From: Lepidurus packardi
Lineage: Eukaryota > Arthropoda > Branchiopoda > Notostraca > Triopsidae
DNA length: 64,000 nucleotides
Reading direction: 5' to 3'
NCBI GenBank assembly: GCA_023053545.1
Contig: JAKZAN010000071.1
Coordinates: 120,417-184,416, forward strand
Within the stretch, counting starts at the first letter, position 1. Each line of letters begins with the position of its first letter. The translations under genes were made by a program, and so were the position numbers. The notes below the pieces were generated by a model. That model ran no database searches. It saw only the letters and a program-made list of their open reading frames with translations, and had not been told where the DNA came from. Below, piece by piece: positions 3,293 to 21,438 of the stretch.

Positions 3293-3298
3293 TTAGGC

Positions 3299-3346
3299 CA
3301 AAACTAAAGCAATCTTAAAACCTGATTTTACACTAAAAGTGTAAAA
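3299..3346 (-). promoter_or_regulatory. cassette promoter 1: operator palindrome, 19 nt, -7 box
   Basis: A perfect palindrome at 3326-3346 (arms TTTTACACT and AGTGTAAAA around AAA), then exactly 19 nt, then -7 box TAGTTTTG at 3299-3306 (minus strand). No -33 TTG is seen, as expected for a promoter that needs an activator bound at the palindrome. TTTAACA beyond the distal arm is also conserved between copies. Confidence 0.75.
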
Positions 3347-3390
3347 AAATGTTAAAGGTATTGTGCTGACGAATCGGGCTAAAAAAGAAA

Positions 3391-3416
3391 AAAACGACAG
3401 GTGAACCTGCCGTTTT
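3391..3416 (-). terminator. hairpin terminator after the 81-residue membrane gene
   Basis: An 11-bp stem AAAACGACAGG / CCTGCCGTTTT with a TGAA loop. The one mismatch on the plus strand becomes a G-U pair in minus-strand RNA, supporting minus-strand transcription. A T-rich tail follows. Confidence 0.7.
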
Positions 3417-3445
3417 AAATGTATTGGCATTAGAGTTACTACTAT

Positions 3446-3691
3446 TCAGTGCTGAATCTTAGATTGATTACTGCGTTTTTTACCGTAATAGTACATTACT
3501 ATAAATCCTATATCAACAATTAATGCTCTAAATGTCGAAACATATAAAAGTTTGTAAAAATTACTCTCATTTATTGCTTTTTTTTCATTTAAAAAGTAGA
3601 AATGTGACCAAACAATAAAATTAATAAAAATTGTTGTTATTATCAGTAAAAGTATTATCCCTATTTCAGTTGCTTTTTTCTTTCTATACAT
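3446..3691 (-). CDS. small two-helix membrane protein, putative immunity protein
   Basis: An 81-residue protein with two hydrophobic segments (~10-33 and ~52-70) and a basic, polar C-terminus (YYYGKKRSNQSKIQH). It matches no family I recognise. It starts 11 bases after the stop of the secreted protein gene at 3703-4419 and ends before a terminator, so the two form one transcript. Small membrane proteins directly after secreted antibacterial proteins are typical immunity proteins. The role is inferred from position only. Confidence 0.6.
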   Translation of the reverse strand: MYRKKKATEIGIILLLIITTIFINFIVWSHFYFLNEKKAINESNFYKLLYVSTFRALIVDIGFIVMYYYGKKRSNQSKIQH

Positions 3692-3702
3692 AAGATCAGA
3701 AA

Positions 3703-4419
3703 TTAATCATTCCAGTTAATATGCGCTGTCATTGATGCTCCAACTGCGCCAGAAACGGCGCCGTACAAAAAACCTGCAAGCCCGCCTACAGGGCCAGAAA
3801 CAAATAGAGCAGATAAGCCCCACGTAACCATTCCTATTCCAGCACCACAACCATCTGCGCGAACCCAACCTGGCAGTTTATCTTTACTTGAAGATCCTGC
3901 TTTTGCGTAAGCGTATTTAGATCCTAAACCAGAGCCTCCCATTTCTTTTGGATACCAAAAATTGGCAGAAGCTTTCGACGTTTCCAAAAGAACCATAATA
4001 GTATCCCAATCATTTTTTGACAAATTCTTATTTACATCTGTCTTTATCAAATCTAGCTTTTTATTTAGTTCACTAATATTTGTTGACTCATTTATTGCAT
4101 CTTCGATTTGATTAAAATATTCTGTAGCTTTAATGTTTATAAAACTATTTAATATTTCTCTTTTCATTTGATTGTAACTTTGACTTGTAAAATAATCAAA
4201 TATTTTAGCTTGTTCATCTTTTGTAATATTAGGAATTTTTACAGCTAAGAAAGCCTCCTTTGGTTCTAACTCCTTACTCATCGCATTATTTACAGACTGT
4301 AGGAGATAGTCATTGTGTAATTTTGCAAATTCTAAAGGATTCACTCTACCAGTTCCTTGTGAAAAACTTGTATTTGCAAACATAACTGTAGCAATTAAGC
4401 CAAAAATAATTTTTTTCAT
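3703..4419 (-). CDS. secreted bacteriocin-like protein with shared signal peptide and Gly-rich C-terminus
   Basis: A 238-residue protein. Residues 1-14 (MKKIIFGLIATVMF) are identical to those of the genes at 7934, 10862, 11936 and 12665, and a Sec signal peptide ends near residue 21 (FSQ). A helical, charged region follows (~25-165). The last ~50 residues are hydrophobic and very Gly/Ala-rich with GxxxG spacing (a glycine-zipper look), beginning after DGCGAG and ending HINWND. The order signal peptide / helical pro-region / short membrane-active C-terminal segment resembles bacteriocin precursors. Promoter at 4509-4556, UTR stem-loop at 4442-4464, membrane partner immediately downstream. No homologue is recognised; the antibacterial role is inference. 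Confidence 0.7.
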   Translation of the reverse strand: MKKIIFGLIATVMFANTSFSQGTGRVNPLEFAKLHNDYLLQSVNNAMSKELEPKEAFLAVKIPNITKDEQAKIFDYFTSQSYNQMKREILNSFINIKATEYFNQIEDAINESTNISELNKKLDLIKTDVNKNLSKNDWDTIMVLLETSKASANFWYPKEMGGSGLGSKYAYAKAGSSSKDKLPGWVRADGCGAGIGMVTWGLSALFVSGPVGGLAGFLYGAVSGAVGASMTAHINWND

Positions 4420-4441
4420 AATATATAAATTTTAAGGTTTT

Positions 4442-4464
4442 AAATCTGAAACCAGTTCAAATTT
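4442..4464 (-). promoter_or_regulatory. 5'-UTR stem-loop of cassette leader
   Basis: A 9-bp stem in minus-strand RNA (AAATTTGAA / TTCAGATTT) just upstream of the ATG. Compared with the other leaders the stem base change gives a U-G pair, so pairing is kept. The equivalent structures are at 8644, 11060, 12493 and 13078. Confidence 0.5.
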
Positions 4465-4508
4465 GTCTAGTTGTTGATAACAAATAATTCTCGAGTAATT
4501 TGTTAGGT

Positions 4509-4556
4509 CAAAACTAAGCCAATCTTAAAACCTGATTTTACACTAAAAGTGTAAAA
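4509..4556 (-). promoter_or_regulatory. cassette promoter 2: operator palindrome, 19 nt, -7 box
   Basis: Perfect palindrome at 4536-4556, 19-nt spacer, -7 box TAGTTTTG at 4509-4516. The palindrome centre lies 127 bases upstream of the ATG of the gene at 3703-4419; in two other cassettes this distance is 125. Confidence 0.8.
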
Positions 4557-4596
4557 AATGTTAAAGCGTGGCAAAACTCAAATTTTTTCACTCGCA

Positions 4597-4628
4597 AAAA
4601 AACGACAGTTTTGCGACTGTCGTTTTTA
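4597..4628 (-). terminator. hairpin terminator after the 80-residue membrane gene
   Basis: A perfect 9-bp stem AACGACAGT / ACTGTCGTT flanked by A and T runs that lengthen it, with a short loop. In minus-strand RNA a U-rich tail follows. Confidence 0.75.
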
Positions 4629-4687
4629 TAGTGCGAATCATGTTTACTATTGCGCTAAGCGAAAAAAAAATTTGCTTCAAGCAGCAT

Positions 4688-4930
4688 TTATACTTGGTTC
4701 CAATAAAATGAAAATATTACCGCGGATAAAGACACAAAAAATAGTAATATCCAAAGTTTTTGCTTTGGTAGCGCTTTACTTTTGTATAGCTGAAAGAAAT
4801 GATTTGTCGCAAAAACCAAAATTGGAATCAGCAGTAAAAATTTTACTGTAATGCTTAATTTAAGCAAGTTTGTCATAACAAGATAAAGTCCCAGTAATAA
4901 GAAAAGGACCATGTTGGATTGTTTTTTCAT
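4688..4930 (-). CDS. small hydrophobic membrane protein
   Basis: An 80-residue protein starting MKKQSNMVLF at 4930; an in-frame longer start at 5002 adds residues that overlap the preceding fragment and look non-coding. It has three hydrophobic stretches (~7-22, ~28-45, ~60-77) separated by basic loops (QLYKSKALPKQK). No known family. It is the last gene before a terminator in a run of small membrane-protein genes behind the secreted proteins at 5773-7400. It may be an immunity or accessory protein; the sequence does not say. Confidence 0.55.
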   Translation of the reverse strand: MKKQSNMVLFLLLGLYLVMTNLLKLSITVKFLLLIPILVFATNHFFQLYKSKALPKQKLWILLFFVSLSAVIFSFYWNQV

Positions 4931-4970
4931 AATGAAGATATTAAAGATTTGGATATTTAGTGAAACGGCC

Positions 4971-5177
4971 TTACTGTACAACACGCTTACTACCGGTGCC
5001 AACCAAAGAGATCAGAAAAGCAGCAATTGGCGTCAACAAATAGTACGGATTGTCAATACGATTATAATAGTAGCAAGCATAGAATAATAAGATAAATGGG
5101 CTGGCTATATATAAGAACACCAACAATCTATTATAAATACTGGCCGTGGTGTTCACCTTAAAAAGTACGATAATCAA
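4971..5177 (-). pseudogene. C-terminal remnant of the 162-residue membrane protein family
   Basis: The frame encodes about 67 residues similar to the last third of the protein at 10351-10839: both have FLY(I/V)A(S/A)PFIL(L/I)FY, then RIDN(P/L)YY(L/V)LTPI. There is no ATG; the frame opens at a TTG (5177) and an in-frame stop lies a few codons upstream. Only about 60 bases separate it from the next gene, so the N-terminal two thirds are deleted rather than frameshifted. A leftover of cassette recombination. Confidence 0.6.
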
Positions 5178-5238
5178 ATCGAGTTCGGGATATGTGAACT
5201 ATTTCGCCGATCACTTGAGGAAATCAATGCCAATCAAT

Positions 5239-5463
5239 TTAGTTCTGTTCCTTTTTATTGAGCGAAAACAGATAGTAAACCGAGATTAGCATCGAAGTCA
5301 TTAAAGCCACAGCTCCAAAAACTGCATACTGCATTGGCCTCGAAAACACGATTCCGCCGTTGTTTAAATGATTTTGCATACTGTCAAAAGATCCTAAATC
5401 AAGCATCATGACGATTGCGGTACAGTTTAGCAGAATGCTGAGAACGATGACGAATTTTTTCAT
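5239..5463 (-). CDS. small two-helix membrane protein
   Basis: A 74-residue protein from the ATG at 5463 (MKKFVIVLSILLNC); the longer in-frame start at 5568 would overlap the preceding gene and is unlikely. Hydrophobic segments lie at ~3-20 and ~46-66, with a short polar loop (FDSMQNHLNNGG) between and a charged tail (LNKKEQN). No family recognised. It belongs to the minus-strand operon headed by the secreted proteins at 6945-7400 and 5773-6909. Confidence 0.55.
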   Translation of the reverse strand: MKKFVIVLSILLNCTAIVMMLDLGSFDSMQNHLNNGGIVFSRPMQYAVFGAVALMTSMLISVYYLFSLNKKEQN

Positions 5464-5501
5464 GTGTAAATAATTAAGTTTAATTTTTAGGAACTGCATT
5501 A

Positions 5502-5687
5502 TTACTTCTGTCTCGAGAAATACAATATTGATCCAATCAAGGGAAAAGCAAAAACCACAAATAGCCACATGCGTTTATCGCCATCAAGAAGGGTTTCGTC
5601 GTGGTTTACTTTGTGAAGTACTGTCGCAAAAACATAGATTATGTGAATAACGAACAGCAACGGTATAACTAATAACAATAGATTCAT
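5502..5687 (-). CDS. small membrane protein with PLDc_N-like segment
   Basis: A 61-residue protein with two membrane helices (~3-22 and ~42-57). The second (RMWLFVVFAFPLIGSILYF) fits the phospholipase D N-terminal membrane domain (PLDc_N), which also occurs as a stand-alone small protein. The same motif is found in the proteins at 7697-7921 and, as a remnant, 21070-21189. It stands 85 bases after the secreted helical protein gene (5773-6909). Immunity function is inferred from its repeated association with secreted proteins. Confidence 0.6.
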   Translation of the reverse strand: MNLLLLVIPLLFVIHIIYVFATVLHKVNHDETLLDGDKRMWLFVVFAFPLIGSILYFSRQK

Positions 5688-5772
5688 GTTTAAAAAAATT
5701 TGAGGTTATTTCCCTTTCAAACAGGGGGCAATATAAGTATAATACTACAAAGAGCCGCTTCTTCCCTTTTAA

Positions 5773-6909
5773 TTAATCAAATTCGTTTAGTCCATATAAA
5801 ATCTCCTTCATTTTGGTTCCGTTCACTTCGACTGGCTTGTATGCGATATTAAATTTGTCAATTGCGACGTCTACATCAGCTTTTAATTTCTTGTATTCCA
5901 TTGGCAGTTTCGTCTCACATTGTTTTCCATTCTCGTAGCTGTTCAAAATAATTTTAAACTTTTCATAAAACTTGCCGCCCTGGTCAATAAAGTTGTTGTA
6001 TTGTGTAATGAACTGCAATAGCCGGTCAATTGGAAACTCTAAATTAACCTGCATCTTATACTGAGATGTGCCTGTTGCAGTTTTCAGTTTTGCTAAGTAC
6101 TCTTCCATTTTCTGTGTGACCGATTCCCAATCATCATTCGATCGGCAATTTTCCAATGTTGCAACGTAACCAATCGGTTTTGTATAGTCTCTAAATAGCA
6201 GTTCAATGTCAGTCTTCATTTTTGTATTACTTGTTTGTAGAAAAGCTGTTTCGAAATAAATCGTATTCAAATCATTTTGCATTCGCAAGGTGAAATCGAG
6301 AATACATTCCACGTTTCCGATCTCCTTTTCTTTCTCTTCTTTTGACAATGAAGAACTGAGCATGTTCGTAAAAGTCTGAACGACTGATACAATCGTATTC
6401 GTGCCAAGTACGGAAGTTAGGTCGAAGGCCGATTTCTTATCACGCTTGGCTGAAACAACTTCCTTCAATTTTTCATACTCTGGATACTGGTTAGGGTTTG
6501 AAATTTTGTTGATTTCATTTAATGTCCGAACAGATGCGAAATGGTGATCTAAACTTAGCACTTTTTCATACAAGATTCTGATGATCTGCAAACCTTTAAG
6601 GTACCGTATCTTAGACAATTCGCCAGAACTCTCCTTAATCATTCCTACGATTTCTGCTTTAATAAAATCTTTTTCCATCAGTAAGTCAACCTTTTGCTCC
6701 ATGCTAACTGCTTCTTTTAAAGCAGCGTTGACCTCTTGCAAGCGAAAACGCTTTTGGTCAATAAGCAAATCGTATTTATGCTGAACACGATTGACTTCGT
6801 TAAGCATCTCTTTAATAATGTCATTAGGATTGCTTTCATCACCTTTTGAAAACGCATTTGTTTTGGTAAACAAAACGATAAGTAAAACTATGTATGTCGC
6901 TGATTTCAT
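5773..6909 (-). CDS. secreted all-helical protein of unknown function
   Basis: A 378-residue protein with an N-terminal signal peptide (hydrophobic 5-16, cleavage near TNAFS). The rest is almost entirely charged helix with coiled-coil character (for example ~28-75 and ~190-235), two Cys (~200 and ~255) and a further Cys near 345. There are no membrane segments beyond the signal and no recognised domain. It lies 35 bases after the gene at 6945-7400, so the two are co-transcribed from the operator promoter at 7422-7469. It could be a larger effector, scaffold or binding partner of its neighbour. Function unknown. Confidence 0.65.
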   Translation of the reverse strand: MKSATYIVLLIVLFTKTNAFSKGDESNPNDIIKEMLNEVNRVQHKYDLLIDQKRFRLQEVNAALKEAVSMEQKVDLLMEKDFIKAEIVGMIKESSGELSKIRYLKGLQIIRILYEKVLSLDHHFASVRTLNEINKISNPNQYPEYEKLKEVVSAKRDKKSAFDLTSVLGTNTIVSVVQTFTNMLSSSLSKEEKEKEIGNVECILDFTLRMQNDLNTIYFETAFLQTSNTKMKTDIELLFRDYTKPIGYVATLENCRSNDDWESVTQKMEEYLAKLKTATGTSQYKMQVNLEFPIDRLLQFITQYNNFIDQGGKFYEKFKIILNSYENGKQCETKLPMEYKKLKADVDVAIDKFNIAYKPVEVNGTKMKEILYGLNEFD

Positions 6910-6944
6910 GGGTGGCAGTCTTTAAAATTATATGGTTCTTTGGC

Positions 6945-7400
6945 TTACCGCGTAGCAGAAAGTGTAATTGTAATTTGAATTTTGTCTTTTACTATGTTCA
7001 GCGGATAAGTACCCTTTTTCACTAACGCGTATCGGATGTCAAGATCTAGGTAAAGTAGCGTATCAATATCAAAAACAAAGTCATCGTTTTGAACAAATGT
7101 CAGCGTTTCATCATTTCCTATTTTGGCAAATTCTTTTCCAAAGATTTTATTTTGATCTTCTAGTGTTAGCGTGTTGGTATTTAATTCGAACATTACGACG
7201 TTGAAGTCCTTCTTGTAAGCTGTATATGCTTTCATAGTTGTAAATTTGTTATTCATATCGAACGGCGCCACTGTGCACAGCCCGCGACCGATGTCACATA
7301 GTTTGCCATTAAACTCTCCCTGGGTAGCTTTTCCTTTGTCTTGTGCGAAACAAATTGTAGCAGTGAGAATTACGGCCATGGTGATACTTTTATTGATCAT
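6945..7400 (-). CDS. small secreted protein, first gene of an operator-controlled operon
   Basis: 151 residues from the ATG at 7400 (MINKSITMAVILTATICFAQ, a typical signal peptide). An upstream in-frame ATG at 7436 is rejected because it would overlap the -7 box. The mature part has two Cys close together (KLCDIGRGLCTV) and a beta-rich C-terminus (DFVFDIDTLLYLDLDIRY ... IQITITLSA). No family recognised. Its signal peptide differs from the shared leader, and its promoter keeps the palindrome and the 19-nt spacing but lacks the UTR stem-loop. Confidence 0.65.
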   Translation of the reverse strand: MINKSITMAVILTATICFAQDKGKATQGEFNGKLCDIGRGLCTVAPFDMNNKFTTMKAYTAYKKDFNVVMFELNTNTLTLEDQNKIFGKEFAKIGNDETLTFVQNDDFVFDIDTLLYLDLDIRYALVKKGTYPLNIVKDKIQITITLSATR

Positions 7401-7421
7401 GATTTTAATTGTTTTAGAGTG

Positions 7422-7469
7422 TAAAGGTACTGGCAAGTTGTTACGGCTTTTTACACTAAAAGTGTAAAA
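7422..7469 (-). promoter_or_regulatory. cassette promoter 3: operator palindrome, 19 nt, variant -7 box
   Basis: Perfect palindrome at 7449-7469, 19-nt spacer of unrelated sequence, -7-like TACCTTTA at 7422-7429 (one mismatch to TAnnTTTG). The transcript would start about 15 bases before the ATG at 7400. The spacer differs from the other cassettes, so the kept spacing argues for function rather than simple duplication. Confidence 0.7.
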
Positions 7470-7512
7470 AATGTTAAAGATATTCTGCTGACGAACTGGA
7501 ATAAAAATAAAG

Positions 7513-7536
7513 AAACGGCAGCGGAAGCTGCCGTTT
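7513..7536 (-). terminator. hairpin terminator, AAACGGCAGC family
   Basis: Perfect 10-bp stem AAACGGCAGC / GCTGCCGTTT with loop GGAA, followed in minus-strand RNA by UCUUUAUUUUUAUU. It ends the operon of 7934-8623 and 7697-7921. Confidence 0.75.
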
Positions 7537-7585
7537 AGATTTAATAATTTGTCTTTTTTTCTCTATTGTGGTCTTATTATAAAGA

Positions 7586-7611
7586 GCATTTTTGGTCGTA
7601 ACCAAAAATGC
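7586..7611. terminator. inverted repeat, possible terminator
   Basis: An 11-bp perfect inverted repeat GCATTTTTGGT / ACCAAAAATGC with a 4-base loop (CGTA), 50 bases before the AAACGGCAGC hairpin and 86 bases after the membrane gene at 7697. It has no long U run in the minus direction, so it may be an RNA processing or protein-binding site instead. Confidence 0.4.
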
Positions 7612-7696
7612 GTTTTGTTTAACCTGGTTTTACAGTAATTGTAATTTATTAAATGAGTTTCTAGCTTTTGTAAAGTTCTTTAAGCTAAAAACAAAT

Positions 7697-7921
7697 CTAT
7701 AATTTCATAGAGGCCTTTTCCCGAATGAAAAATTTAACGAAATATATAAGACTTCCTATAACAGGAAAAAAAAGAGACAGTAATATCCATAAAAAAATAA
7801 AATATGATTTTTCGTTTTTTAAAATTAGGTATAGAGCTACAGCCGTACTAATTAAATAAATGCTCGCTCCTATAATAACGTCGGATGGGCTTATAATACC
7901 CAAAAAAAATGTCAGACACAT
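7697..7921 (-). CDS. small membrane protein with PLDc_N-like segment, putative immunity protein
   Basis: A 74-residue protein with two or three hydrophobic segments. The C-terminal one (FLWILLSLFFPVIGSLIYF) fits PLDc_N, like the proteins at 5502-5687 and 21070-21189. The basic tail FFIREKASMKL probably faces the cytoplasm. It starts 12 bases after the stop of the Cys-rich secreted protein gene and shares its promoter and terminator. Immunity to that neighbour is the simplest reading; not shown. Confidence 0.6.
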   Translation of the reverse strand: MCLTFFLGIISPSDVIIGASIYLISTAVALYLILKNEKSYFIFLWILLSLFFPVIGSLIYFVKFFIREKASMKL

Positions 7922-7933
7922 ATATTTACGGCT

Positions 7934-8623
7934 TTAGTTACAACAAAAGGATTGTGATGATAAACATAAGTGACTACCCCAAAGGCATGAAGTATCTACT
8001 CCTCCTAATTTTCGACAACCGCTAAGATCAGGGATGGTAAATCCGCTAGTATACGTAATTATCTCACCAGGTAAGTTAGCTGCAGCTACACTAGCACTAA
8101 TGCCAGTTGCGAATACTGCATACGTATTCCCAAATGAACATCCTAGTTCACCGTTACCACTTGCTGCCAGTTTGTCTGATTCAGGTGTTATTAATTCGTT
8201 CATAAAAAGATATAAAAGATTAAAATCTATATCATCAATATATGTGCCTCTTTTTATAAATCCTTTGTATGTTGGAGTTGTAATATATGGTTGATTTTCT
8301 AATATTGTTAATTGAAGATCAGGATTTGAACTAATTGAAATCATTCCATCCTTTAGTATAATCTTGTAGTTTTTAAAATCTGTAACTTTCCCATTTAGGA
8401 TAAACATTTGTTTTGTAACTAAATTGTATTGAGCCGTTGCTTCACTATTAGTTACCACTACTTCCACGACACCCATCTTTAAAAATAATTGTGATATTTT
8501 AGATGTTGTTTTTGAAAGAGTTACTCTTTCTTCGAGTTGATAATTCTTTTTACTTAAAATCTGCGCACTCCCAACAAATCCAAACATAACTGTGGCAATT
8601 AAGCCGAAAATAATTTTTTTCAT
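7934..8623 (-). CDS. secreted bacteriocin-like protein with shared signal peptide and Cys-rich C-terminus
   Basis: A 229-residue protein. Residues 1-21 are the shared leader (MKKIIFGLIATVMFGFVGSA plus Q), identical to those at 10862, 11936 and 12665. The middle (~25-150) is beta-rich without Cys. The final ~75 residues change character: Gly/Ala/Ser-rich (ATGISASVAAANLPG) and with six Cys, four in the last 20 residues (CLWGSHLCLSSQSFCCN). That layout suits a disulphide-stabilised C-terminal peptide behind a pro-region. Promoter at 8711-8758, stem-loop at 8644-8667, PLDc_N-like partner downstream. No homologue recognised; antibacterial role inferred. Confidence 0.7.
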   Translation of the reverse strand: MKKIIFGLIATVMFGFVGSAQILSKKNYQLEERVTLSKTTSKISQLFLKMGVVEVVVTNSEATAQYNLVTKQMFILNGKVTDFKNYKIILKDGMISISSNPDLQLTILENQPYITTPTYKGFIKRGTYIDDIDFNLLYLFMNELITPESDKLAASGNGELGCSFGNTYAVFATGISASVAAANLPGEIITYTSGFTIPDLSGCRKLGGVDTSCLWGSHLCLSSQSFCCN

Positions 8624-8643
8624 AATATAAATTTTAAGGTTTT

Positions 8644-8667
8644 AAATCTGAAACCATTTCCAGATTT
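8644..8667 (-). promoter_or_regulatory. 5'-UTR stem-loop of cassette leader
   Basis: AAATCTG pairs with CAGATTT, extended by AAA/TTT around a short loop, about 20 bases upstream of the ATG at 8623. Identical to the copies at 12493 and 13078. Confidence 0.5.
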
Positions 8668-8710
8668 ATTAGTTATTGATAACAAAAAATTCTCGAGTAA
8701 TTTGTTAGGT

Positions 8711-8758
8711 CAAAACTAAGGCAATCTTAAAACTTGATTTTACACTAAAAGTGTAAAA
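8711..8758 (-). promoter_or_regulatory. cassette promoter 4: operator palindrome, 19 nt, -7 box
   Basis: Perfect palindrome at 8738-8758, 19-nt spacer, TAGTTTTG at 8711-8718. The palindrome centre is 125 bases from the ATG at 8623. Confidence 0.8.
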
Positions 8759-8801
8759 AATGTTAAAGATATTCTGCTGACGAACTGGAATAAAAATAAA
8801 G

Positions 8802-8825
8802 AAACGGCAGCGGAAGCTGCCGTTT
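8802..8825 (-). terminator. hairpin terminator, AAACGGCAGC family
   Basis: Same 10-bp stem and GGAA loop as 7513-7536, including about 60 bases of identical flank reaching into the neighbouring operator. It ends the unit holding the small membrane genes at 8848-9210. Confidence 0.75.
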
Positions 8826-8847
8826 AGATGCGTTACGATTTAGAATA

Positions 8848-8991
8848 CTACAAGACGATTTTACCAGTTTCCTTTGTGAACTTCCACATTAGTTTGTTAT
8901 AAATCCTAAATGGAATAAAAAGCTGGATGTAAAGTATATGTTTTTCATGTTCTTGTTTTAAAAATGGATACACGTATACAAAATAGTATTT
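8848..8991 (-). pseudogene. decayed copy of the 49-residue membrane protein
   Basis: An open frame of 47 codons with no ATG (a GTG is the only usable start), containing HEKHILYIQLFIPF, which matches NHILYILLFIPY of the intact small gene at 9061-9210, and a similar FTK segment. The N-terminal hydrophobic helix is lost. Probably a tandem duplicate that has decayed. Confidence 0.5.
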
Positions 8992-9060
8992 TTATGCAAA
9001 AAGCAAAAAAACCGACTCAAGTTGTGAGACAGCTAATTTTTTATTTGATAAAAATGATTA

Positions 9061-9210
9061 TCACTTTTTTTTCATTTTTGTAAATTCATTTACTATAAAC
9101 CCCACATAAGGAATAAAAAGTAGGATATAGAGTATATGATTTTTATCTGGCAAGTATAGCAAAGAATAAATACCAAAAAGCAATAACAATATCAAAATAG
9201 TTGTTTTCAT
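9061..9210 (-). CDS. 49-residue two-helix membrane protein
   Basis: ATG at 9210, stop at 9061. The protein starts MKTTILILLLLFGIYSLLYL and has a second hydrophobic segment (HILYILLFIPYVGFIV) with a basic end (KMKKK). It is preceded by the conserved leader piece (GGTTTCAAATTTAAAGCCTTAAAA), showing that a cassette leader was placed in front of it. A decayed paralogue follows at 8848-8991, and the similarity between the two supports that it is a real gene. Function unknown; it fits the series of putative immunity proteins. Confidence 0.55.
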   Translation of the reverse strand: MKTTILILLLLFGIYSLLYLPDKNHILYILLFIPYVGFIVNEFTKMKKK

Positions 9211-9249
9211 GTGTTTTTTTCTATATTAAAAAATACAACTCAAAAGTTT

Positions 9250-9438
9250 TTAAGGCTTTAAATTTGAAACCATTTTCATCGGAACCAATACTATTTCTTT
9301 GCCATCACTTGACAACTTTTCAAGTTTAATGTGCTCATCATAAATGCCTCCTAATTTTAGTGCGAGATTGAGTTTAAATGAGGTGCATGAGCATAAAGAC
9401 GCAATGGCGGCCATCAATAAAAGTTTTTTCATTTTCAT
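9250..9438 (-). pseudogene. truncated duplicate of the TraB/GumN-like lipoprotein gene
   Basis: The first ~55 codons are nearly identical to the gene at 11144-11875 (lipobox region SLCSCTSF, then FKLNLALKLGG and KLSSDGKEIVLVP), as is the upstream flank with its terminator (9439-9485 against 11876-11920). The match stops after IVLVP, and the sequence runs directly into the constant leader piece of the next cassette. Missing are the catalytic-type motifs of the full gene, so the product is not functional as a TraB protein. Confidence 0.7.
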
Positions 9439-9450
9439 GATATCTAAATT

Positions 9451-9482
9451 AAAACATCACTCAAAAACTCAGGTGATGTTTT
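9451..9482 (-). terminator. hairpin between lipoprotein gene and TraB remnant
   Basis: AAAACATCAC pairs with GTGATGTTTT (10 bp, 12-base loop), 12 bases after the stop at 9494. Duplicated at 11889-11918 in the same position relative to the TraB gene. Confidence 0.6.
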
Positions 9483-9493
9483 GTGTTTTGTCG

Positions 9494-10099
9494 CTATCGA
9501 TTAACGGCGCTTCGGTCTTTCCGACGAGCTTTCGTATCTGTCCACCACTTTTGTTTATCCGCGTTCAGTAAAATGTAGTTCACCTTGAGACCGTCTTGCC
9601 TAAGCTTTTGCACTGTTTTAACCCACTCAGACGTGTTTTCATTTAATTCTCCAATCCATTTTGCCCAAATAACAACGACAGTCATGTCTGGCTCAGCAAA
9701 TTGGTTTAGCACAGATATCGGCTGAATTAAAGAAAGTACTGCCTCCAATTTAATTTTTTCGCTTGCTTGCCTACTATCAATAGAAGCCAGGTCATCTAAA
9801 AGTTTCGAAACATTACGAGGGCAAGAGTGCGCCGTTTCTTGGTATTCCACATAGAGCCCGTCATGGTTAAAAAACATAGCGCTTGGAATTACAAACCCTT
9901 TCAATTTACTATGGCGAATCATGGCATCTTGTGAAGAAAAGACATATAAATTTGTACTGTCAATTTTACTCTTTAACAAATATTTTTTAACCGATAATGC
10001 ATCTTCATCTTTAGGCGTTTTGATTTTATACATTTTCTTAGCTACGATGCCGCAAGATGAAAATGTGATTAATAGTAAAATATAGCAAAAATTTTTCAT
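9494..10099 (-). CDS. lipoprotein, possible thioredoxin-like fold without CxxC
   Basis: 201 residues from the ATG at 10099 (MKNFCYILLLITFSSCG, lipobox Cys at ~16); a TTG two codons upstream is not needed. The C-terminal half (DMTVVVIWAKWIGELN ... VNYILLNADKQKWW) has the strand-helix rhythm and VIWAKW segment of thioredoxin-like proteins, but the redox CxxC is absent. The only other Cys lies near residue 90 (HSCPRN). Promoter at 10217-10264; the next gene downstream is the truncated TraB copy. Could be an envelope sensor or an immunity lipoprotein; family uncertain. Confidence 0.6.
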   Translation of the reverse strand: MKNFCYILLLITFSSCGIVAKKMYKIKTPKDEDALSVKKYLLKSKIDSTNLYVFSSQDAMIRHSKLKGFVIPSAMFFNHDGLYVEYQETAHSCPRNVSKLLDDLASIDSRQASEKIKLEAVLSLIQPISVLNQFAEPDMTVVVIWAKWIGELNENTSEWVKTVQKLRQDGLKVNYILLNADKQKWWTDTKARRKDRSAVNR

Positions 10100-10216
10100 A
10101 ATCAATTTTTAAAATACAGAGCAATCGCACACTTCTATGGAATTGCCCTGTTAATCCTTTAAATTATTTTAACATACTATCTACTTGCACTTTAATTCTC
10201 GAGTAATTTGTTAGGT

Positions 10217-10264
10217 CAAAACTACACCAACCTTAAAACCTGATTTTACACTAAAAGTGTAAAA
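10217..10264 (-). promoter_or_regulatory. cassette promoter 5: operator palindrome, 19 nt, -7 box
   Basis: Perfect palindrome at 10244-10264, 19-nt spacer, TAGTTTTG at 10217-10224. It drives the lipoprotein gene at 9494-10099 through a leader different from the MKKIIFGL type. Confidence 0.75.
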
Positions 10265-10301
10265 AATGTTAAAAATATCTATTGACAACCTGGGCTAAAA
10301 A

Positions 10302-10325
10302 AAACCGCAGGTGAAGCTGCCGTTT
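10302..10325 (-). terminator. degenerate AAACGGCAGC-family hairpin
   Basis: AAACCGCAGG / GCTGCCGTTT with a C-C mismatch inside the stem; position and flank equal those at 8802 and 7513. It follows the membrane gene at 10351-10839. Confidence 0.5.
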
Positions 10326-10350
10326 GTAATTAAATATCAGATTATTAAGA

Positions 10351-10839
10351 CTAAGACTGCTTACTTTTACTTAAATAAAGTAGCCCGATTAACAAGGAAA
10401 AAATAGGTGTAAGCACGTAGTATAAATTATCAATTCGATCACTATTGTAACTCACATAAAAAATTAAAATGAATGGAGCGGCAACATATAACCATACAAT
10501 CAAACTGATTAAAAATAAATCAGTCTTGACATTTATTTTTAAAAATACAATCGTGAAATACAAAGCCATGAATAGAAAATAGAACGGTGATTTCGCAAGC
10601 AATAGTGGAAAAGATCCTATGGCAGTTAAAAGCATAAGTAAAAAAAGAATCGTTTTTCTTTTAAAAGAAAAAATTTCACAAGATCCAATCAGCAGCACGT
10701 TTATAACTAGAGGTATAACTAAAGAGATTATTATTGACTGCAATAAATTGTTTATAATTTTCGTCAGCGTTATAAAAACAATAAGGTTTACTGCGAGCAT
10801 TAAAACGATTTTCCCGGGTTTGGTATTTAAACTAAGCAT
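10351..10839 (-). CDS. multi-helix membrane protein, putative immunity protein of the 55-residue peptide
   Basis: A 162-residue, strongly hydrophobic protein with about five membrane helices (~12-28, ~33-52, ~62-80, ~84-100, ~110-150) and a short basic tail (LSKSKQS). No family recognised. A deleted relative of its C-terminal third lies at 4971-5177. It starts 22 bases after the stop of the 55-residue secreted peptide gene, the same order as the other secreted/membrane pairs. Role inferred. Confidence 0.6.
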   Translation of the reverse strand: MLSLNTKPGKIVLMLAVNLIVFITLTKIINNLLQSIIISLVIPLVINVLLIGSCEIFSFKRKTILFLLMLLTAIGSFPLLLAKSPFYFLFMALYFTIVFLKINVKTDLFLISLIVWLYVAAPFILIFYVSYNSDRIDNLYYVLTPIFSLLIGLLYLSKSKQS

Positions 10840-10861
10840 CTGGCTATTTAGTAATGGTTAT

Positions 10862-11029
10862 TTAATTATTAGGCGCAAAGCATCGACCACTTATTTTGTT
10901 AAGAAGAACTAAGTTGGAGTCCACTAACTCTTTGTCTTTTTTATAATTCCCAGTTTCTTTTATAACCTGCGCACTCCCAACAAATCCAAACATAACGGTG
11001 GCGATTAAGCCAAAAATAATTTTTTTCAT
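10862..11029 (-). CDS. 55-residue secreted peptide with shared signal peptide
   Basis: ATG at 11029, TAA at 10862. The first 21 residues equal the shared leader; the predicted mature peptide is only 34 residues (VIKETGNYKKDKELVDSNL ... CFAPNN), charged, with one Cys near the end. It keeps a UTR stem-loop (11060-11082), but the -7 box and operator are gone: the leader is cut at about 11124 and joined to the 3' end of the TraB-like gene. It may be a genuine small peptide, or a truncated cassette gene read through from upstream. Confidence 0.55.
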   Translation of the reverse strand: MKKIIFGLIATVMFGFVGSAQVIKETGNYKKDKELVDSNLVLLNKISGRCFAPNN

Positions 11030-11059
11030 AATAATAATTTTTTTAAAATTGGTTTTTTA

Positions 11060-11082
11060 AAATCTGGATCTCTTCCAGATTT
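11060..11082 (-). promoter_or_regulatory. 5'-UTR stem-loop, divergent sequence
   Basis: A 9-bp perfect stem AAATCTGGA / TCCAGATTT with loop TCTCT. The loop and inner stem differ from the other leaders, yet the structure and its place before the ATG are kept. Confidence 0.5.
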
Positions 11083-11143
11083 CGGTTTAAATTGTTTTTA
11101 CTAACAAAAAATTCTCGAATAATTTACACATTTAGATTTACAA

Positions 11144-11875
11144 TTAAAAAATTTGCTTATAACCCGATTTCTGGAGTTCAACTCGGATCCCTCTAAAATG
11201 TTCCTTTCCGTAAATCAGGATTACTTTACTGCGTTTTTCGCCTAATAACTCCTTAATAATATGATTGTTACGAAAGCTTACGATTATTTCCCTTCTTCTA
11301 GCCTTGTCTATTGGTGCATCTGGGCAGATAGTTTTCTGATATAGCGTTGTTTTGAAATCGCAGTCATTGAGTTGTATTTCGCCATATACGCGTTCATACT
11401 CCGTGATTAAATCTAGCATTTTCAAATCCACATTTTTGCTCAGTTGTGCATTCACCCCCAATTCAGTATATTTCGGTTGATTGATAAGTTTCTTTTTGTA
11501 TTTAAAATTGGGATACAAAGAATCGAAAACGCTGAGATATCCTGAATTGTTCTTTGAGAAAGGTAGTCCTTGCAGCTTTTTCATTTTATAAATCAATAAA
11601 GAGTCTGTAACATTTCCAGAAATACTTTCATAATAACTGATGTACCCTAGATTTTGTAGCGAATCCACTTTTTTGGCAACATCGCGATAAAAATTCTCTG
11701 TTCCAATATGATTTATCGGAACCAATACTATTTCCTTGCCATCACTTGACAACTTTTGAAGTTTAATGTGCTCATCATAAACACCTCCTAATTTTAGTGC
11801 GAGATTGAGTTTAAATGAGGTGCATGAGCATAAAGTCGCAATAGTGGCCACCAATAAAAGTTTTTTCGTTTTCAT
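11144..11875 (-). CDS. TraB/PrgY/GumN-like lipoprotein
   Basis: 243 residues. A lipoprotein signal with ATLCSC (Cys ~18) is followed by a TraB-type layout: LVPINHIGTENFYRDVAKKV (the GxxH-like N-terminal motif, His ~55), ISYYESISG (acidic motif ~80) and LIYGKEHFRGI near residue 225, which matches the C-terminal G-x-x-H motif. TraB/GumN proteins are thought to be metal-dependent peptidases; PrgY of enterococci lowers peptide-pheromone activity, so a peptide-handling role next to secreted peptides is attractive. That link is inference. A duplicate of its 5' end is at 9250-9438. Confidence 0.65.
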   Translation of the reverse strand: MKTKKLLLVATIATLCSCTSFKLNLALKLGGVYDEHIKLQKLSSDGKEIVLVPINHIGTENFYRDVAKKVDSLQNLGYISYYESISGNVTDSLLIYKMKKLQGLPFSKNNSGYLSVFDSLYPNFKYKKKLINQPKYTELGVNAQLSKNVDLKMLDLITEYERVYGEIQLNDCDFKTTLYQKTICPDAPIDKARRREIIVSFRNNHIIKELLGEKRSKVILIYGKEHFRGIRVELQKSGYKQIF

Positions 11876-11888
11876 GATATCTAAATTA

Positions 11889-11918
11889 AAACATCACTCA
11901 AAAATTCAAGTGATGTTT
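11889..11918 (-). terminator. hairpin between secreted-protein gene and TraB-like gene
   Basis: AAACATCACT / AGTGATGTTT, 10 bp, 10-base loop, 17 bases after the stop at 11936 and 13 bases before the next ATG. No promoter fits between hairpin and ATG, so the TraB-like gene probably depends on read-through. Confidence 0.6.
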
Positions 11919-11935
11919 CGTGTTTCTTTTTAAAA

Positions 11936-12472
11936 TTATGGTAAGATTAGGGAGACAATCAAAGTGTATAAAGCTGTAAGTATAGCAGTCCCTCCAGTAT
12001 CTCCAAAAATTTGATTAAGCCAACACGCCACTTGATACCATCTGCATGGTGATTCTTTGCCTTGAATATTCGCCGAAAAAGGGTTAAAATCGCCTGTTGT
12101 ACCTCCAAATAATTCGCTTCCATCTGACTTGGGATTAATCTTGTGCTGTTTATCGATGTACAAACATGCTGCAGCCATTTCTGAGCCTGAATATTCAGAT
12201 AAAATCTGCTTTCTAGAAGTTTGCTTTACCGTGTACTCGTACACTTTTTTTATCAGCGCCCTGCCTTCGGCTGTGTTTTTAGCATTTCCAATTAATGCTT
12301 TCTCAAATTCTTCGAATGTAGCTCCACTTTTGTAAGCCGGTCTTAAAGCCTCAACCAATGAGGCTATGCCTTCTGACAAAGTATATCTCACACTTTCTTT
12401 ATTTGCACTTTGCGCACTCCCAACAAATCCAAACATAACTGTAGCAATTAAGCCAAAAATAATTTTTTTCAT
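11936..12472 (-). CDS. secreted bacteriocin-like protein with shared signal peptide and hydrophobic C-terminus
   Basis: 178 residues: the shared leader (1-21), a helical region (~30-115, with ATFEEFEKAL comparable to NTFEEMKLDV in the protein at 16884), then a C-terminal part starting near SPCRWYQVACWLNQIFG (two Cys) and ending in a hydrophobic helix (AILTALYTLIVSLILP). This again looks like a pro-region plus membrane-active segment. Unlike its neighbours, it is followed not by a small membrane gene but by the TraB-like lipoprotein. Its promoter keeps the -7 box but lost the palindrome. Confidence 0.7.
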   Translation of the reverse strand: MKKIIFGLIATVMFGFVGSAQSANKESVRYTLSEGIASLVEALRPAYKSGATFEEFEKALIGNAKNTAEGRALIKKVYEYTVKQTSRKQILSEYSGSEMAAACLYIDKQHKINPKSDGSELFGGTTGDFNPFSANIQGKESPCRWYQVACWLNQIFGDTGGTAILTALYTLIVSLILP

Positions 12473-12492
12473 AATATAAATTTTAAGGTTTT

Positions 12493-12516
12493 AAATCTGA
12501 AACCATTTCCAGATTT
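12493..12516 (-). promoter_or_regulatory. 5'-UTR stem-loop of cassette leader
   Basis: AAATCTG / CAGATTT stem extended by AAA/TTT, identical to 8644-8667, upstream of the ATG at 12472. Confidence 0.5.
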
Positions 12517-12559
12517 ATTAGTTATTGATAACAAAAAATTCTCGAGTAATTTGTTAGGT

Positions 12560-12590
12560 CAAAACTAAAGCAACACTAAAAGGTATTTGT
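12560..12590 (-). promoter_or_regulatory. cassette promoter with deleted operator
   Basis: TAGTTTTG is intact at 12560-12567, but a deletion within the spacer brings a half-site (ACACTAAAAG, 12573-12582) to within a few bases. No palindrome lies at the 19-nt position. The gene at 11936-12472 is therefore expected to have lost activation. Confidence 0.55.
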
Positions 12591-12624
12591 ATTAGCTAAA
12601 ACCATAAATTGAAGATATAAAAAT

Positions 12625-12649
12625 GCCCTAAAACATTCTATTTTAGGGC
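12625..12649 (-). terminator. hairpin terminator after the Thr/Val-rich secreted gene
   Basis: GCCCTAAAA pairs with TTTTAGGGC (9-10 bp) with a short loop, followed by ATTTTTATA in minus-strand RNA. Sequence unrelated to the AAACGGCAGC family. Confidence 0.7.
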
Positions 12650-12664
12650 TTTTTAATATGATTA

Positions 12665-13057
12665 TTAACCTCCAGCCATAGCAATAAGTTGTGCTCTTAA
12701 TTTTTTACCTGTAGCAACGGCTCCATCACAAGAAGTGGTAATACTGCCAGTTACTGTTACTGATGTTGATCCTCCTGCTACCCCAACAGATGCTTCAATA
12801 GTTACTGTTACTGACATTTCAATGGTTACAGTACACGCATCAGCATCAGCTAATGCTCTTTGTGCATCAGCAACTGTTTGCTCAACAATTTTATCTGATT
12901 GCGCATTAAAATCTTTTAATGTTGTGTATTTATAACTTACAACTTCTTTATTCGCTTTTGTAGTAATACTCGCGCTTTTAAAAGTTGTTTTCTCTTGCGC
13001 ACTGCCTACAAATCCAAACATAACTGTAGCAATTAAGCCAAAAATAATTTTTTTCAT
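12665..13057 (-). CDS. small secreted protein with shared signal peptide, Thr/Val-rich
   Basis: 130 residues: the shared leader (1-21), a short charged region (~22-65), then an alternating Val/Thr/Ser segment typical of beta strands (TVTIEMSVTVTIEASVGVAG) with two Cys (~74 and ~109), ending MAGG. Unlike the other cassette products it has no hydrophobic helix. No membrane gene follows; a terminator comes 16 bases after the stop. It is the cassette nearest to the regulator genes and carries a full operator promoter. Unknown function; could be a different class of secreted product, such as a signal or surface protein. Confidence 0.65.
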   Translation of the reverse strand: MKKIIFGLIATVMFGFVGSAQEKTTFKSASITTKANKEVVSYKYTTLKDFNAQSDKIVEQTVADAQRALADADACTVTIEMSVTVTIEASVGVAGGSTSVTVTGSITTSCDGAVATGKKLRAQLIAMAGG

Positions 13058-13077
13058 AATATAAATTTTAAGGTTTT

Positions 13078-13101
13078 AAATCTGAAACCATTTCCAGATT
13101 T
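13078..13101 (-). promoter_or_regulatory. 5'-UTR stem-loop of cassette leader
   Basis: Identical AAATCTG / CAGATTT stem-loop upstream of the ATG at 13057. Confidence 0.5.
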
Positions 13102-13144
13102 ATTAGTTATTGATAACAAAAAATTCTCGAATAATTTGTTAGGT

Positions 13145-13192
13145 CAAAACTAAAGCAATCTTAAAACCTGATTTTACACTAAAAGTGTAAAA
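13145..13192 (-). promoter_or_regulatory. cassette promoter 6: operator palindrome, 19 nt, -7 box
   Basis: Perfect palindrome at 13172-13192, 19-nt spacer, TAGTTTTG at 13145-13152. The centre is 125 bases from the ATG at 13057. It lies directly after the stop of the response regulator gene. Confidence 0.8.
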
Positions 13193-13221: not shown

Positions 13222-13875
13222 TCAGAGTAAGCCATTGGCACGACACTGTCTTATTATATCTTCATCATTACCCTTCTCTAATTCAAGTAGATCTTTAATT
13301 CGGCTCTTTCTCTTCTTAATCGTGTCTTCAGAAACATTCAGCTGATTGGCTATAGACTTAATCTGGCAGCCATCTGCAATAAAAGTGATAATTTGGCGGT
13401 CTAATGTGTCTAGTAATCCTTGCGAAAGCAAGCGCTCTTTAATACGTTCATGTACAAGTGGCGAATAATAAATAGCGCCCTCAAGTACCGAATTGAAAAT
13501 TTCTATTAATTGTGCCGGTTGGAAATCGCTCTTAATCAGCAAGCCATCTGGCTGCACGCGTTTCACGATTGAGTATAATTTTATCGAATCGAAGTGCGCG
13601 GTTACAATAATAATCTTAGTTCTTGGCATAAACCTTCGGACCAATACTGCTAAATCTTCACCCGAGCTAATCTTTTCTGCCCGATAAGCAGGCAAACTGT
13701 AATCCAAGAAGGCCAGTTCGAAAGCATCCGCATTTTCAGGATTGGTAATCACTTTAAACGCGCTTTCGCAGTCATGGCAGTCTACTGTCTCAATGCTATG
13801 TCTACTGTCTAGCGACAAAACCGATTTATAACCTTCAATCATCATTTGATGATCATCTACCATCAGTATTTTCAT
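13222..13875 (-). CDS. LuxR/NarL-type response regulator of the cassette island
   Basis: 217 residues. Receiver domain: MVDDHQ (Asp pair ~6-7), acceptor Asp in AFLDYSLPA near 59, Lys in GLLIKSDF near 113. HTH domain from ~155: LDRQIITFIADGCQIKSIANQ, VSEDTIKKRKSRIKDLLEL. It follows the sensor kinase gene by 42 bases on the same strand, so it is the cognate partner. LuxR-type regulators bind short palindromes as dimers, and a matching palindrome stands before seven transcription units here, including its own operon. I infer it activates them. Family and pairing sure; target assignment inferred. Confidence 0.92.
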   Translation of the reverse strand: MKILMVDDHQMMIEGYKSVLSLDSRHSIETVDCHDCESAFKVITNPENADAFELAFLDYSLPAYRAEKISSGEDLAVLVRRFMPRTKIIIVTAHFDSIKLYSIVKRVQPDGLLIKSDFQPAQLIEIFNSVLEGAIYYSPLVHERIKERLLSQGLLDTLDRQIITFIADGCQIKSIANQLNVSEDTIKKRKSRIKDLLELEKGNDEDIIRQCRANGLL

Positions 13876-15977: not shown

Positions 15978-16238
15978 TTATGGAACAATCGGCGTTGATG
16001 GTACTCTCGACGGCGGATCAGTATCGCCATCCTTCGCAAATGTCGCAACGCTATCTTGCTGTTGCTCATCATAGTTCTGAAATTGTTGCGATCCCAAATA
16101 CGTAGGGATTTCGCGTTTTCCTTCTGATGGAATTTCATCGACCGTGCAGGAAGTGAAAACCGAAGATAAAAACATTGCTGCAAAAAATAAGGCGCTTGAT
16201 GTGAGGTGATTTGTTTTTGAAGGTGTGTTAATTTTCAT
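15978..16238 (-). CDS. small lipoprotein heading the kinase/regulator operon
   Basis: 86 residues. A long signal segment with lipobox VFTSC puts the lipidated Cys near residue 31, leaving about 55 polar residues that are acidic and end Pro-rich (SRVPSTPIVP). No known domain. It precedes the sensor kinase by 35 bases and shares its promoter (16349-16396). It might modulate the kinase or serve as its signal, as small exported proteins beside kinases often do; the sequence cannot show this. Confidence 0.6.
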   Translation of the reverse strand: MKINTPSKTNHLTSSALFFAAMFLSSVFTSCTVDEIPSEGKREIPTYLGSQQFQNYDEQQQDSVATFAKDGDTDPPSRVPSTPIVP

Positions 16239-16348: not shown

Positions 16349-16396
16349 CAAAACTACCACTGTGCCACGCGTCGATTTTACGCTAAAAGGATAAAA
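16349..16396 (-). promoter_or_regulatory. promoter of the kinase operon: imperfect operator, 19 nt, -7 box
   Basis: TAGTTTTG at 16349-16356, a 19-nt spacer unrelated to the other cassettes, then TTTTACGCT AAA AGGATAAAA at 16376-16396, an imperfect version of the palindrome, followed by the conserved TGTTAAA. Position and spacing equal those of the cassette promoters. It suggests weaker autoregulation. Confidence 0.65.
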
Positions 16397-16633: not shown

Positions 16634-16652
16634 TGATTATGGTAGTGGAAAT

Positions 16653-21237: not shown

Positions 21238-21438
21238 CTATTTCCATTTCTGCTTAATCTTGAGAATAAAAAAAAGAAAAAAACCTAATGTTATAAAAAA
21301 CCCAAGTGCTGCAAAAATCAATCTCCATATTTCTCTATCGAAAAAATATCTGTTTACCGATTTATAAAGAACAATGGAAGCAAATACGTTAATTAATATC
21401 AAACTAACAAAAACTGCAATATACTTTTTCTCTAACAT
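21238..21438 (-). CDS. 66-residue two-helix membrane protein
   Basis: Hydrophobic segments at ~8-25 and ~40-60 with a charged loop (NRYFFDREIWR) between and a basic end (KIKQKWK). No family recognised. It is the first gene after the operator promoter at 21503-21550, with no secreted protein gene before it, so this is a membrane-only version of the cassettes. Confidence 0.55.
   Translation of the reverse strand: MLEKKYIAVFVSLILINVFASIVLYKSVNRYFFDREIWRLIFAALGFFITLGFFLFFILKIKQKWK

Follow-up and report, generated by a model that had tools for sequence, protein, structure and literature searches.

A Flavobacterium locus with one constant 5' module ahead of many unrelated secreted proteins: a candidate Sec-exported variant of blp-like bacteriocin loci

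Introduction

A Sec-type signal peptide does not depend on an exact sequence; why, then, should one be near-constant across 27 unrelated families of secreted proteins? The question is raised by a bacterial locus in a stretch of 64,000 nucleotides (nt), hereafter the window, from contig JAKZAN010000071.1 (C60 in our numbering) of the Lepidurus packardi assembly GCA_023053545.1. In this locus, five leader genes begin with the same 5' module and continue into different mature proteins. A first-pass annotation had described this gene battery, an observation that is confirmed here, and had interpreted it as a set of bacteriocin/immunity cassettes comparable to the pneumococcal blp locus, an interpretation that our analysis supports. 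We consider the battery likely to be a blp-like multi-bacteriocin locus that uses the Sec pathway, with the regulation, toxicity, and immunity proposed below. As a bacterial contig within a eukaryote assembly, the contig probably represents a contaminant or associate; the named homologues of the locus genes in database protein searches belong to Flavobacterium, Flavobacteriaceae, or Flavobacteriales.

The shared 5' module

All five open reading frames (ORFs) of the battery were found, each on the minus strand (Table 1). The leader peptide MKKIIFGLIATVMFGFVGSAQ consists of 21 residues common to four of the genes, and the leader of 3703-4419 keeps the first 14 of these before it diverges. The leader copies form a four-member repeat family of 206 nt; relative to the reference copy, the other three show 72%, 87%, and 97% identity. 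The repeat includes the leader, the untranslated region (UTR), the promoter, and the operator, arranged as palindrome TTTACACTTTTAGTGTAAA, the stretch TTTTGACC..TAACAAATTACTCGAGAATT, the hairpin, and the leader. The 14 to 21 common residues, the hairpin, and the promoter (where undeleted) are therefore as first described, but the ~250 nearly identical bases are not, as the longest leader-copy repeat is 206 nt. Likewise, the common regulator site was present in only three of the five copies; copy 12472 retains the promoter with a partial palindrome, copy 11029 has lost both, and neither has an intact site.

Exact sites were counted in the whole source assembly (108.6 Mb, 344 contigs), in which the 19-bp palindrome occurs exactly six times, 6/6 within the locus. 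Because no exact palindrome lies outside the locus and the module is common to several species, a chance repeat is ruled out.

The UTR hairpin has 9 to 11 bp and lies 19 to 29 nt ahead of the ATG. It was observed in all five window leader genes and in 7 of the 12 leader genes examined from other genomes (shuffle frequencies of at most 0.045); a clear hairpin is absent from L044 14446/15680, L083, and L035 among these 12, and that of L095 is marginal. In a count of covariation made without the MAFFT alignment, in which two 5' arms sat one column off, 85 of 90 cells were paired versus a mean of 79.8 with shuffled 3' arms, and 24 of 5000 shuffles were as high. This covariation across nine sequences is supportive rather than proof, because the sequences are related and the arms were chosen by eye.

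The leader is hydrophobic and of the signal type. Among the 57 leader-sharing proteins compared, residue 20 is Ala in 53 and residue 21 is Gln in 52, and no double-glycine leader was found; the earlier proposal of a Sec-type leader in place of a double-glycine one thus holds. A Gln following the signal peptide is typical of Bacteroidota.

Leader-sharing protein families

Beyond the leader, the coding DNA of the window copies gave pairwise scores of 0.03 to 0.44, around the shuffled level of 0.28. In this respect the mature parts are unrelated, as had been claimed; one correction concerns 11936-12472, which belongs to a conserved Flavobacterium family. Relatives of this 178-amino-acid (aa) protein are found in the related loci L047, L082, L089, L091, L100, and L106, where a homologue of the lipoprotein 11144-11875 follows, and in L087, L088, and L111 the gene after a more distant relative is aspartyl-protease-like instead.

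A search with the leader region yielded 45 proteins including the query. For clustering, 44 proteins from the searches were combined with the five window genes and eight locus copies (n = 57; near-duplicates such as P0074/P0075 were kept), and they fell into 27 mature families (E <1e-3; 53 of 1596 pairs similar). The mean leader identity of 84% among these proteins is high by selection, because the set was gathered by its leader. The precursors are 104 to at least 258 aa long, apart from the 55-aa 10862. Recurring mature types are helical proteins with a hydrophobic end helix, proteins with GRxSxxCxGxGIC or CxGCxxGCxP motifs, and fulvocin C-related proteins; in a further type, Gly-rich segments come after an HN-containing helical region, the Gly-rich part standing first in P0225 and L037. 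The ORF 16884-17408 (174 aa), with a Cys/Gly-rich end, resembles the leader-sharing P0218 by eye and apparently has no working leader upstream.

The model for fulvocin C-related bacteriocins (NF033852; curated cut-off, 35 bits) matched P0213 (70.1 bits), P0220 (70.3 bits), and P0224 (61.7 bits), i.e., 3 of 55 proteins scanned at E 0.001, two of the 55 (window 16884 and L083 8540) lacking the leader. The family has matches in 8 of 199 Flavobacterium genomes, 6 of which are above the cut-off. Single weak matches among the 55 proteins were to folK, AimP, Rdx, and BrxB. Leader proteins contain more cysteines than the remaining secreted-type ORFs of their loci (39 vs. 92 proteins, median 3 vs. 2, p 2e-6; the rows are not independent).

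Partner genes and cassette remnants

A small membrane-protein gene 11 to 25 nt downstream had been reported for several leader genes, and in three of the five we measured gaps of 11, 12, and 22 nt. Considering genes that start no more than 25 nt downstream, at least two transmembrane (TM) segments were predicted in 7 of 8 leader cases versus 58 of 222 other same-locus pairs (Fisher p 7e-4), with a leader gene defined by at least 11 of the 21 leader residues and TM segments assigned by a hydropathy rule. One of the seven TM cases follows the 55-aa ORF 10862, and the eighth, non-TM case is the lipoprotein of L100. The partner in L046 is a CPBP/CAAX protein (PF02517, E 6e-14). These tightly coupled membrane partners, one of them CPBP, fit immunity-type cassettes. 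Leader genes with wider gaps are followed by genes for lipoproteins, aspartyl-protease-like lipoproteins, or proteins with thioredoxin-like motifs (motifs by eye). The lipoprotein 11144-11875 may resemble TraB/PrgY; genes like 9494 are found downstream of the L046 leader gene (17361) and within the L049 locus.

Leader gene 3 is possibly a remnant, and the module at 3327 may be an empty cassette or a small RNA. The leaderless membrane genes, the repeated start of the lipoprotein, and the gene-free operator are debris of the kind that would be expected of a locus whose cassettes turn over. At 7757-8945 of L047, the gene for a leader protein whose end is Cys-rich precedes one for a lipoprotein resembling, by eye, the body of that protein minus the Cys-rich end; this lipoprotein is possibly a decoy immunity protein.

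Operators and the kinase operon

The palindrome lies near a gene for a LuxR-type response regulator, which forms an operon with a small lipoprotein and a histidine kinase with a TPR sensor part. Sixteen regulators were retrieved by a motif search, which missed those of L032 and L034, and 12 of the 16 had an operator by the first pattern; the operator of L047 appeared only in the second table, 34 nt after the gene. Regulators with S[EQ]DT[IV]KKRK helices pair with TACACTTT[TA]AGTG[TC]A operators (5/5), those with LS[DA]SA[IV]EKRK helices pair with TACGGN5CCGTA (4/4), and those with LTESAVEKRK helices pair with TGCGGAAAAACCACA in three of four cases, no operator being found for L092. Three regulators have SLSAIEKRK helices: that of L084 is accompanied by TATGGGAAAACCACA, and window 1425 and L104 are without an operator. 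In L080, which has two regulators, the operator after each is of that regulator's own type. Since the helix class matches the operator class, the palindrome is likely bound by the adjacent regulator. The second response regulator of the window, 1425-2087, lies near the locus and is of another helix class, and no kinase was seen among the neighboring ORFs inspected.

Of 15 loci searched, 9 have a lipoprotein of the kinase-operon type. In four of the nine (window, L045, L046, and L047) it is preceded by an operator-like site with 2 to 3 mismatches, and the best sites of the other five have 5 to 7 mismatches. The lipoprotein 15978-16238 is a candidate for the inducing signal.

The locus in related genomes

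A scan of species genomes with the back-translated leader pattern, in which residue 5 was relaxed from Ile, found 9 stretches: 7 in Flavobacterium/Flavobacteriaceae, 1 in a Bacteroidetes bacterium, and 1 in a metagenome-assembled genome of Chitinophaga pinensis. The stricter pattern was found in 4 of 398 Flavobacterium genomes. Among the bacteria with the locus is the isolate Flavobacterium sp. SUN046 (L033/L047). The 130 nt upstream of the four promoter-bearing copies are 79 to 82% identical to those of L047 and L034, 75 to 78% to L046, 72 to 75% to L049, and 69 to 74% to L044; the corresponding values for copy 11029 are 61 to 67%. The leader DNA is 68 to 92% identical to that of the relatives. 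The regulator DNA of the window is 60 to 63% identical to that of L047, L032, L034, and L049, and the 5773 DNA is 71 to 73% identical to that of L047, L044, and L049. The module (69 to 82%) therefore evolves more slowly than the adjoining regulator gene, although not clearly more slowly than 5773.

In a comparison made between species, different genes follow the module at a recurrent locus, an outcome that the first-pass annotation had set as support for its interpretation. The constant parts of this locus are the operon of lipoprotein, TPR kinase, and LuxR-type regulator and the 6945-5773 pair; the other contents vary. Homologues of 5773 occur in 47 of 398 Flavobacterium genomes (57 to 79% identity for near-full-length matches), and 1221 database proteins matched at E 0.001; no Pfam match was above the cut-off. 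All 4 sampled genomes with the strict leader pattern carry 5773, and G004 and G007, with relaxed leaders, have no match. In five of nine more distant loci inspected (L098, L101, L107, L109, and L110), 5773 comes after two genes, one for a small protein of the secreted type and one for a lipoprotein that has an [FL]DTG motif or close variant, adjoining a metallophosphatase gene (by eye), whose window counterpart is 2203-3009. L114 has the pair with no metallophosphatase neighbor in view, and L097, L102, and L106 are arranged differently (by eye). The metallophosphatase gene also adjoins the locus in L047.

Within the same assembly, contig C51 carries a one-mismatch operator followed by a gene for a 226-aa protein that begins with leader MRKVIFGLIATM and has a Cys/Gly-rich C terminus; by eye, the UTR of this gene contains a hairpin, and an 84-aa membrane gene lies 6 nt downstream. 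A second leader match outside the window contig is on contig C55. The loci of L080 (8721-6119) and L095 (4313-7127) each encode a 70-aa peptide ending in DCHCTV, followed by genes for proteins of ~390 aa and ~450 aa, a set resembling those for ribosomally synthesized and post-translationally modified peptides.

Proposed mechanism and alternatives

We propose that the two-component system of TPR kinase and LuxR-type regulator, encoded after the small lipoprotein, binds the palindromes ahead of the cassettes and of its own operon, and that this binding would switch on the set of secreted proteins jointly. Each product would consist of the common Sec-type signal peptide, ending before Gln, and an individual body, with toxic activity carried by the Cys-rich, Gly-rich, or hydrophobic C-terminal part. 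The producer would be protected by the partner, i.e., a small polytopic membrane or CPBP protein in the tight cassettes and a lipoprotein in the 178-aa family. The conserved 6945-5773 pair may serve the whole cassette set, perhaps in delivery. The constant ends (operator, promoter, and leader in front, and similar terminators behind) would allow cassettes to be exchanged by homologous recombination, and such exchange would leave behind partners and modules without a toxin gene. A more specific form of this proposal assumes that Flavobacterium maintains a pool of Sec-exported protoxin/immunity cassettes, each bounded on one side by the same operator, promoter, UTR hairpin, and signal peptide and on the other by a similar terminator. 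Homologous recombination at these constant ends would swap unrelated toxins into a pheromone-controlled recurrent site, and 6945-5773 would form a shared delivery apparatus taking any protein that bears the leader across the outer membrane; as a whole, we regard this form as possible but doubtful.

A number of observations weigh against a bacteriocin locus. The product of 11936-12472 has 65 relatives aligned over at least 87% of the query and belongs, as noted, to a conserved family, and the gene after it encodes a lipoprotein rather than a membrane protein. None of 3703, 7934, 11936, and 12665 matched a toxin family in NCBIfam and Pfam, and none matched NF033852 at E up to 1; the CPBP match is in the relative L046 and the fulvocin matches are in relatives, neither being inside the window. 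Among the leader-sharing proteins, P0208 matches choice-of-anchor X (28.1 bits, cut-off 25), P0221 and P0216 do so below the cut-off, and P0219 matches SelT/W/H below the cut-off, none of these being toxin models. Hydrophobic tails are unsupported as a general property, the longest charge-free stretch being the same as in control ORFs (median 15 vs. 15). The aspartyl-protease-like lipoproteins match PF13650 above the cut-off in L046, L084, and L088 and just below it in L083, and, judged by eye, the genes after the leader genes of L049 and L083 carry thioredoxin-like WCxxC motifs. L035 has a leader and a TM partner, but no window-class operator or clear hairpin was seen there, and its genome, G004, has no 5773 match. 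Finally, no outer-membrane exporter was identified, type IX secretion domains being covered only by the Pfam and NCBIfam scans.

Some of these features would suit an envelope stress regulon, in which the products are envelope repair or coat proteins, the leader is a duplicated unit that is good for expression and export, and the membrane genes encode co-regulated envelope proteins. The thioredoxin-like (by eye) and protease-like partners, the conserved 6945-5773 core and 178-aa family, the lack of a toxin match in the window, and the choice-of-anchor X matches in three leader-sharing proteins, one above the cut-off, all speak for such a regulon. It is unlikely, however, in view of one leader standing before 27 mature families, contents that vary at a recurrent site, partners without leader genes, a truncated copy, and the fulvocin C-related members and CPBP partner. 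A secreted pore system, in which 5773 would be an alpha-pore former and the leader proteins variable partners or specificity subunits directed at bacteria or eukaryotic predators, has in our judgment little chance of being correct; the predicted model of 5773 is all helical except for a few residues near the C terminus, which is only a hint of kinship with alpha-pore formers. The aspartyl-protease-like lipoproteins that come after many ~137-aa members, together with the small lipoprotein at the beginning of the kinase operon, could also point to a battery of secreted signals, i.e., pheromone pro-peptides cut by the adjacent protease-like lipoproteins and sensed by kin TPR kinases; yet pheromones would not be expected to have bodies as large as these, which span ~100 to 240 residues and contain several cysteines, and one window regulator class would serve many unrelated products, which makes this reading very improbable.

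Three other origins were rejected: phage cargo, as the leader pattern occurred in 0 stretches of viral_contigs; plasmid cargo, as the 206-nt module was unmatched in 72,556 plasmid records; and a defence system, as nine locus proteins had no PADLOC match at E 0.01.

Comparison with known bacteriocin systems

The blp analogy drawn in the first-pass annotation holds for regulation and layout. As described in PMC4860687, blp combines a histidine kinase and response regulator with conserved leaders and many variable bacteriocin/immunity genes at one locus; its immunity genes encode short membrane proteins or CAAX proteases, and leader recombination between its bacteriocin genes has been reported (PMC4860687). 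The window has an adjacent kinase and regulator, a common operator, and small membrane genes with a candidate immunity role. On the other hand, blp uses double-glycine leaders and an ATP-binding cassette (ABC) exporter (PMC4860687), whereas the Flavobacterium locus has a Sec-type leader and longer precursors, lies in a Gram-negative host, and includes two further conserved secreted proteins. No ABC transporter with a C39 peptidase was found among 20 window proteins scanned with Pfam, a subset of the ORFs. The locus works like blp but is not a member by its leader.

Similar to this locus, bacteroidetocins come from Bacteroidota and are Cys-containing secreted peptides, and their region includes a thiol oxidoreductase and a TM gene (PMC6671954). 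They have double-glycine leaders of 15 to 16 aa, mature peptides of 42 aa, and an ABC transporter/peptidase, and no immunity protein was found for them (PMC6671954); with its Sec-type leader and long precursors, the present locus is not a bacteroidetocin locus. The Cdz system of Caulobacter is similar in that its bacteriocins are Gram-negative and contain glycine-rich segments, and in that the immunity protein is small and located in the inner membrane; it differs in its leader, its type I secretion, the size of its two toxins (84 and 86 aa), and the lack of a common-module array (PMC5380434). Fulvocins are mentioned in PMC8708641. The fulvocin C-related P0213, P0220, and P0224 bear the leader, and their family is one of the 27; the four window proteins scanned were unmatched. 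In Bacillus, the sporulation delaying protein SdpC is exported by the Sec pathway as a pro-protein whose C-terminal piece is toxic, and SdpI is the membrane immunity protein. Unlike the Flavobacterium locus, SdpC/SdpI is not known to form an array.

In a literature search whose coverage left out most subscription journals, no paper was recognised as describing such a Flavobacterium locus. It is best filed as a Sec-leader, module-based multi-bacteriocin locus, i.e., a Sec-exported variant of blp-like loci. If this is true, Flavobacterium holds a commonly regulated multi-toxin arsenal, and the leader and operator provide a sequence handle for retrieving dozens of toxin/immunity candidates.

Other features of the locus

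The coordinates of all features are collected in Table 1.

Table 1. Features of the locus, with positions counted from the first nucleotide of the window
Feature	Position	Strand	Remarks
Leader gene 1	12665..13057	-	130 aa; mature part Thr/Val/Gly-rich, same mature family as P0202; downstream partner not found
Leader gene 2	11936..12472	-	178 aa; helical body, hydrophobic C-terminal helix (CRWYQ..CWLNQIFG)
Leader gene 3	10862..11029	-	55 aa only; without operator and promoter
Leader gene 4	7934..8623	-	229 aa; Cys-rich C terminus
Leader gene 5	3703..4419	-	238 aa; Gly-rich C terminus
UTR hairpin, leader gene 1	13077..13102	-	
UTR hairpin, leader gene 2	12492..12517	-	
UTR hairpin, leader gene 3	11059..11083	-	
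UTR hairpin, leader gene 4	8643..8668	-	
UTR hairpin, leader gene 5	4442..4464	-	
Operator palindrome TTTACACTTTTAGTGTAAA	13173..13191	.	ahead of leader gene 1
Operator palindrome	10245..10263	.	ahead of 9494
Operator palindrome	8739..8757	.	ahead of leader gene 4
Operator palindrome	7450..7468	.	ahead of 6945-5773
Operator palindrome	4537..4555	.	ahead of leader gene 5
Operator palindrome, no gene seen	3327..3345	.	promoter-like stretch, ~120 nt, then terminator-like repeat (region 3120-3345)
Degenerate operator, 3 mismatches	16377..16395	.	ahead of lipoprotein-kinase-regulator operon
Operator, 1 mismatch	21531..21549	.	ahead of membrane genes 21238-21438 and 20737-21045 alone
LuxR-type response regulator	13222..13875	-	
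Histidine kinase, TPR sensor part	13918..15942	-	
Small lipoprotein-like gene	15978..16238	-	SCTVDE .. AKDGD .. PP; first of kinase operon
Small secreted protein	6945..7400	-	GKLCDIGRGLC motif; own operator; pairs with 5773-6909 in many relatives
378-aa secreted protein	5773..6909	-	modelled all-helical
Polytopic membrane protein, 162 aa	10351..10839	-	22 nt downstream of leader gene 3; candidate immunity gene
Small membrane protein, 74 aa	7697..7921	-	PLDc_N match; 12 nt downstream of leader gene 4; candidate immunity gene
Small membrane protein, 81 aa	3446..3691	-	11 nt downstream of leader gene 5; candidate immunity gene
Lipoprotein-like partner of 178-aa family	11144..11875	-	60 nt downstream of 11936
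Lipoprotein-like gene	9494..10099	-	intact operator/promoter ahead
Small membrane protein	5502..5687	-	PLDc_N match; no leader gene
66-aa membrane protein	21238..21438	-	operator ahead; leader gene not seen
102-aa membrane protein	20737..21045	-	behind operator 21531, with 21238-21438
62-aa ORF	9250..9438	-	repeats start of 11144-11875; 214-nt repeat, 94%

Two Flavo-1 RNAs, at 3038-3116 and 16471-16553, lie in a 98-nt repeat (97% identical) and flank the locus, and two further Flavo-1 RNAs are found at 23101 and 29358. A direct repeat of 256 nt (88% identical), 16605-16860 and 18242-18497, surrounds 17636-18097. Outside the locus, 21914-22630 encodes a Fic-domain protein, the best PADLOC match of which is to PDC-S04, with a weak match to PDC-S72.

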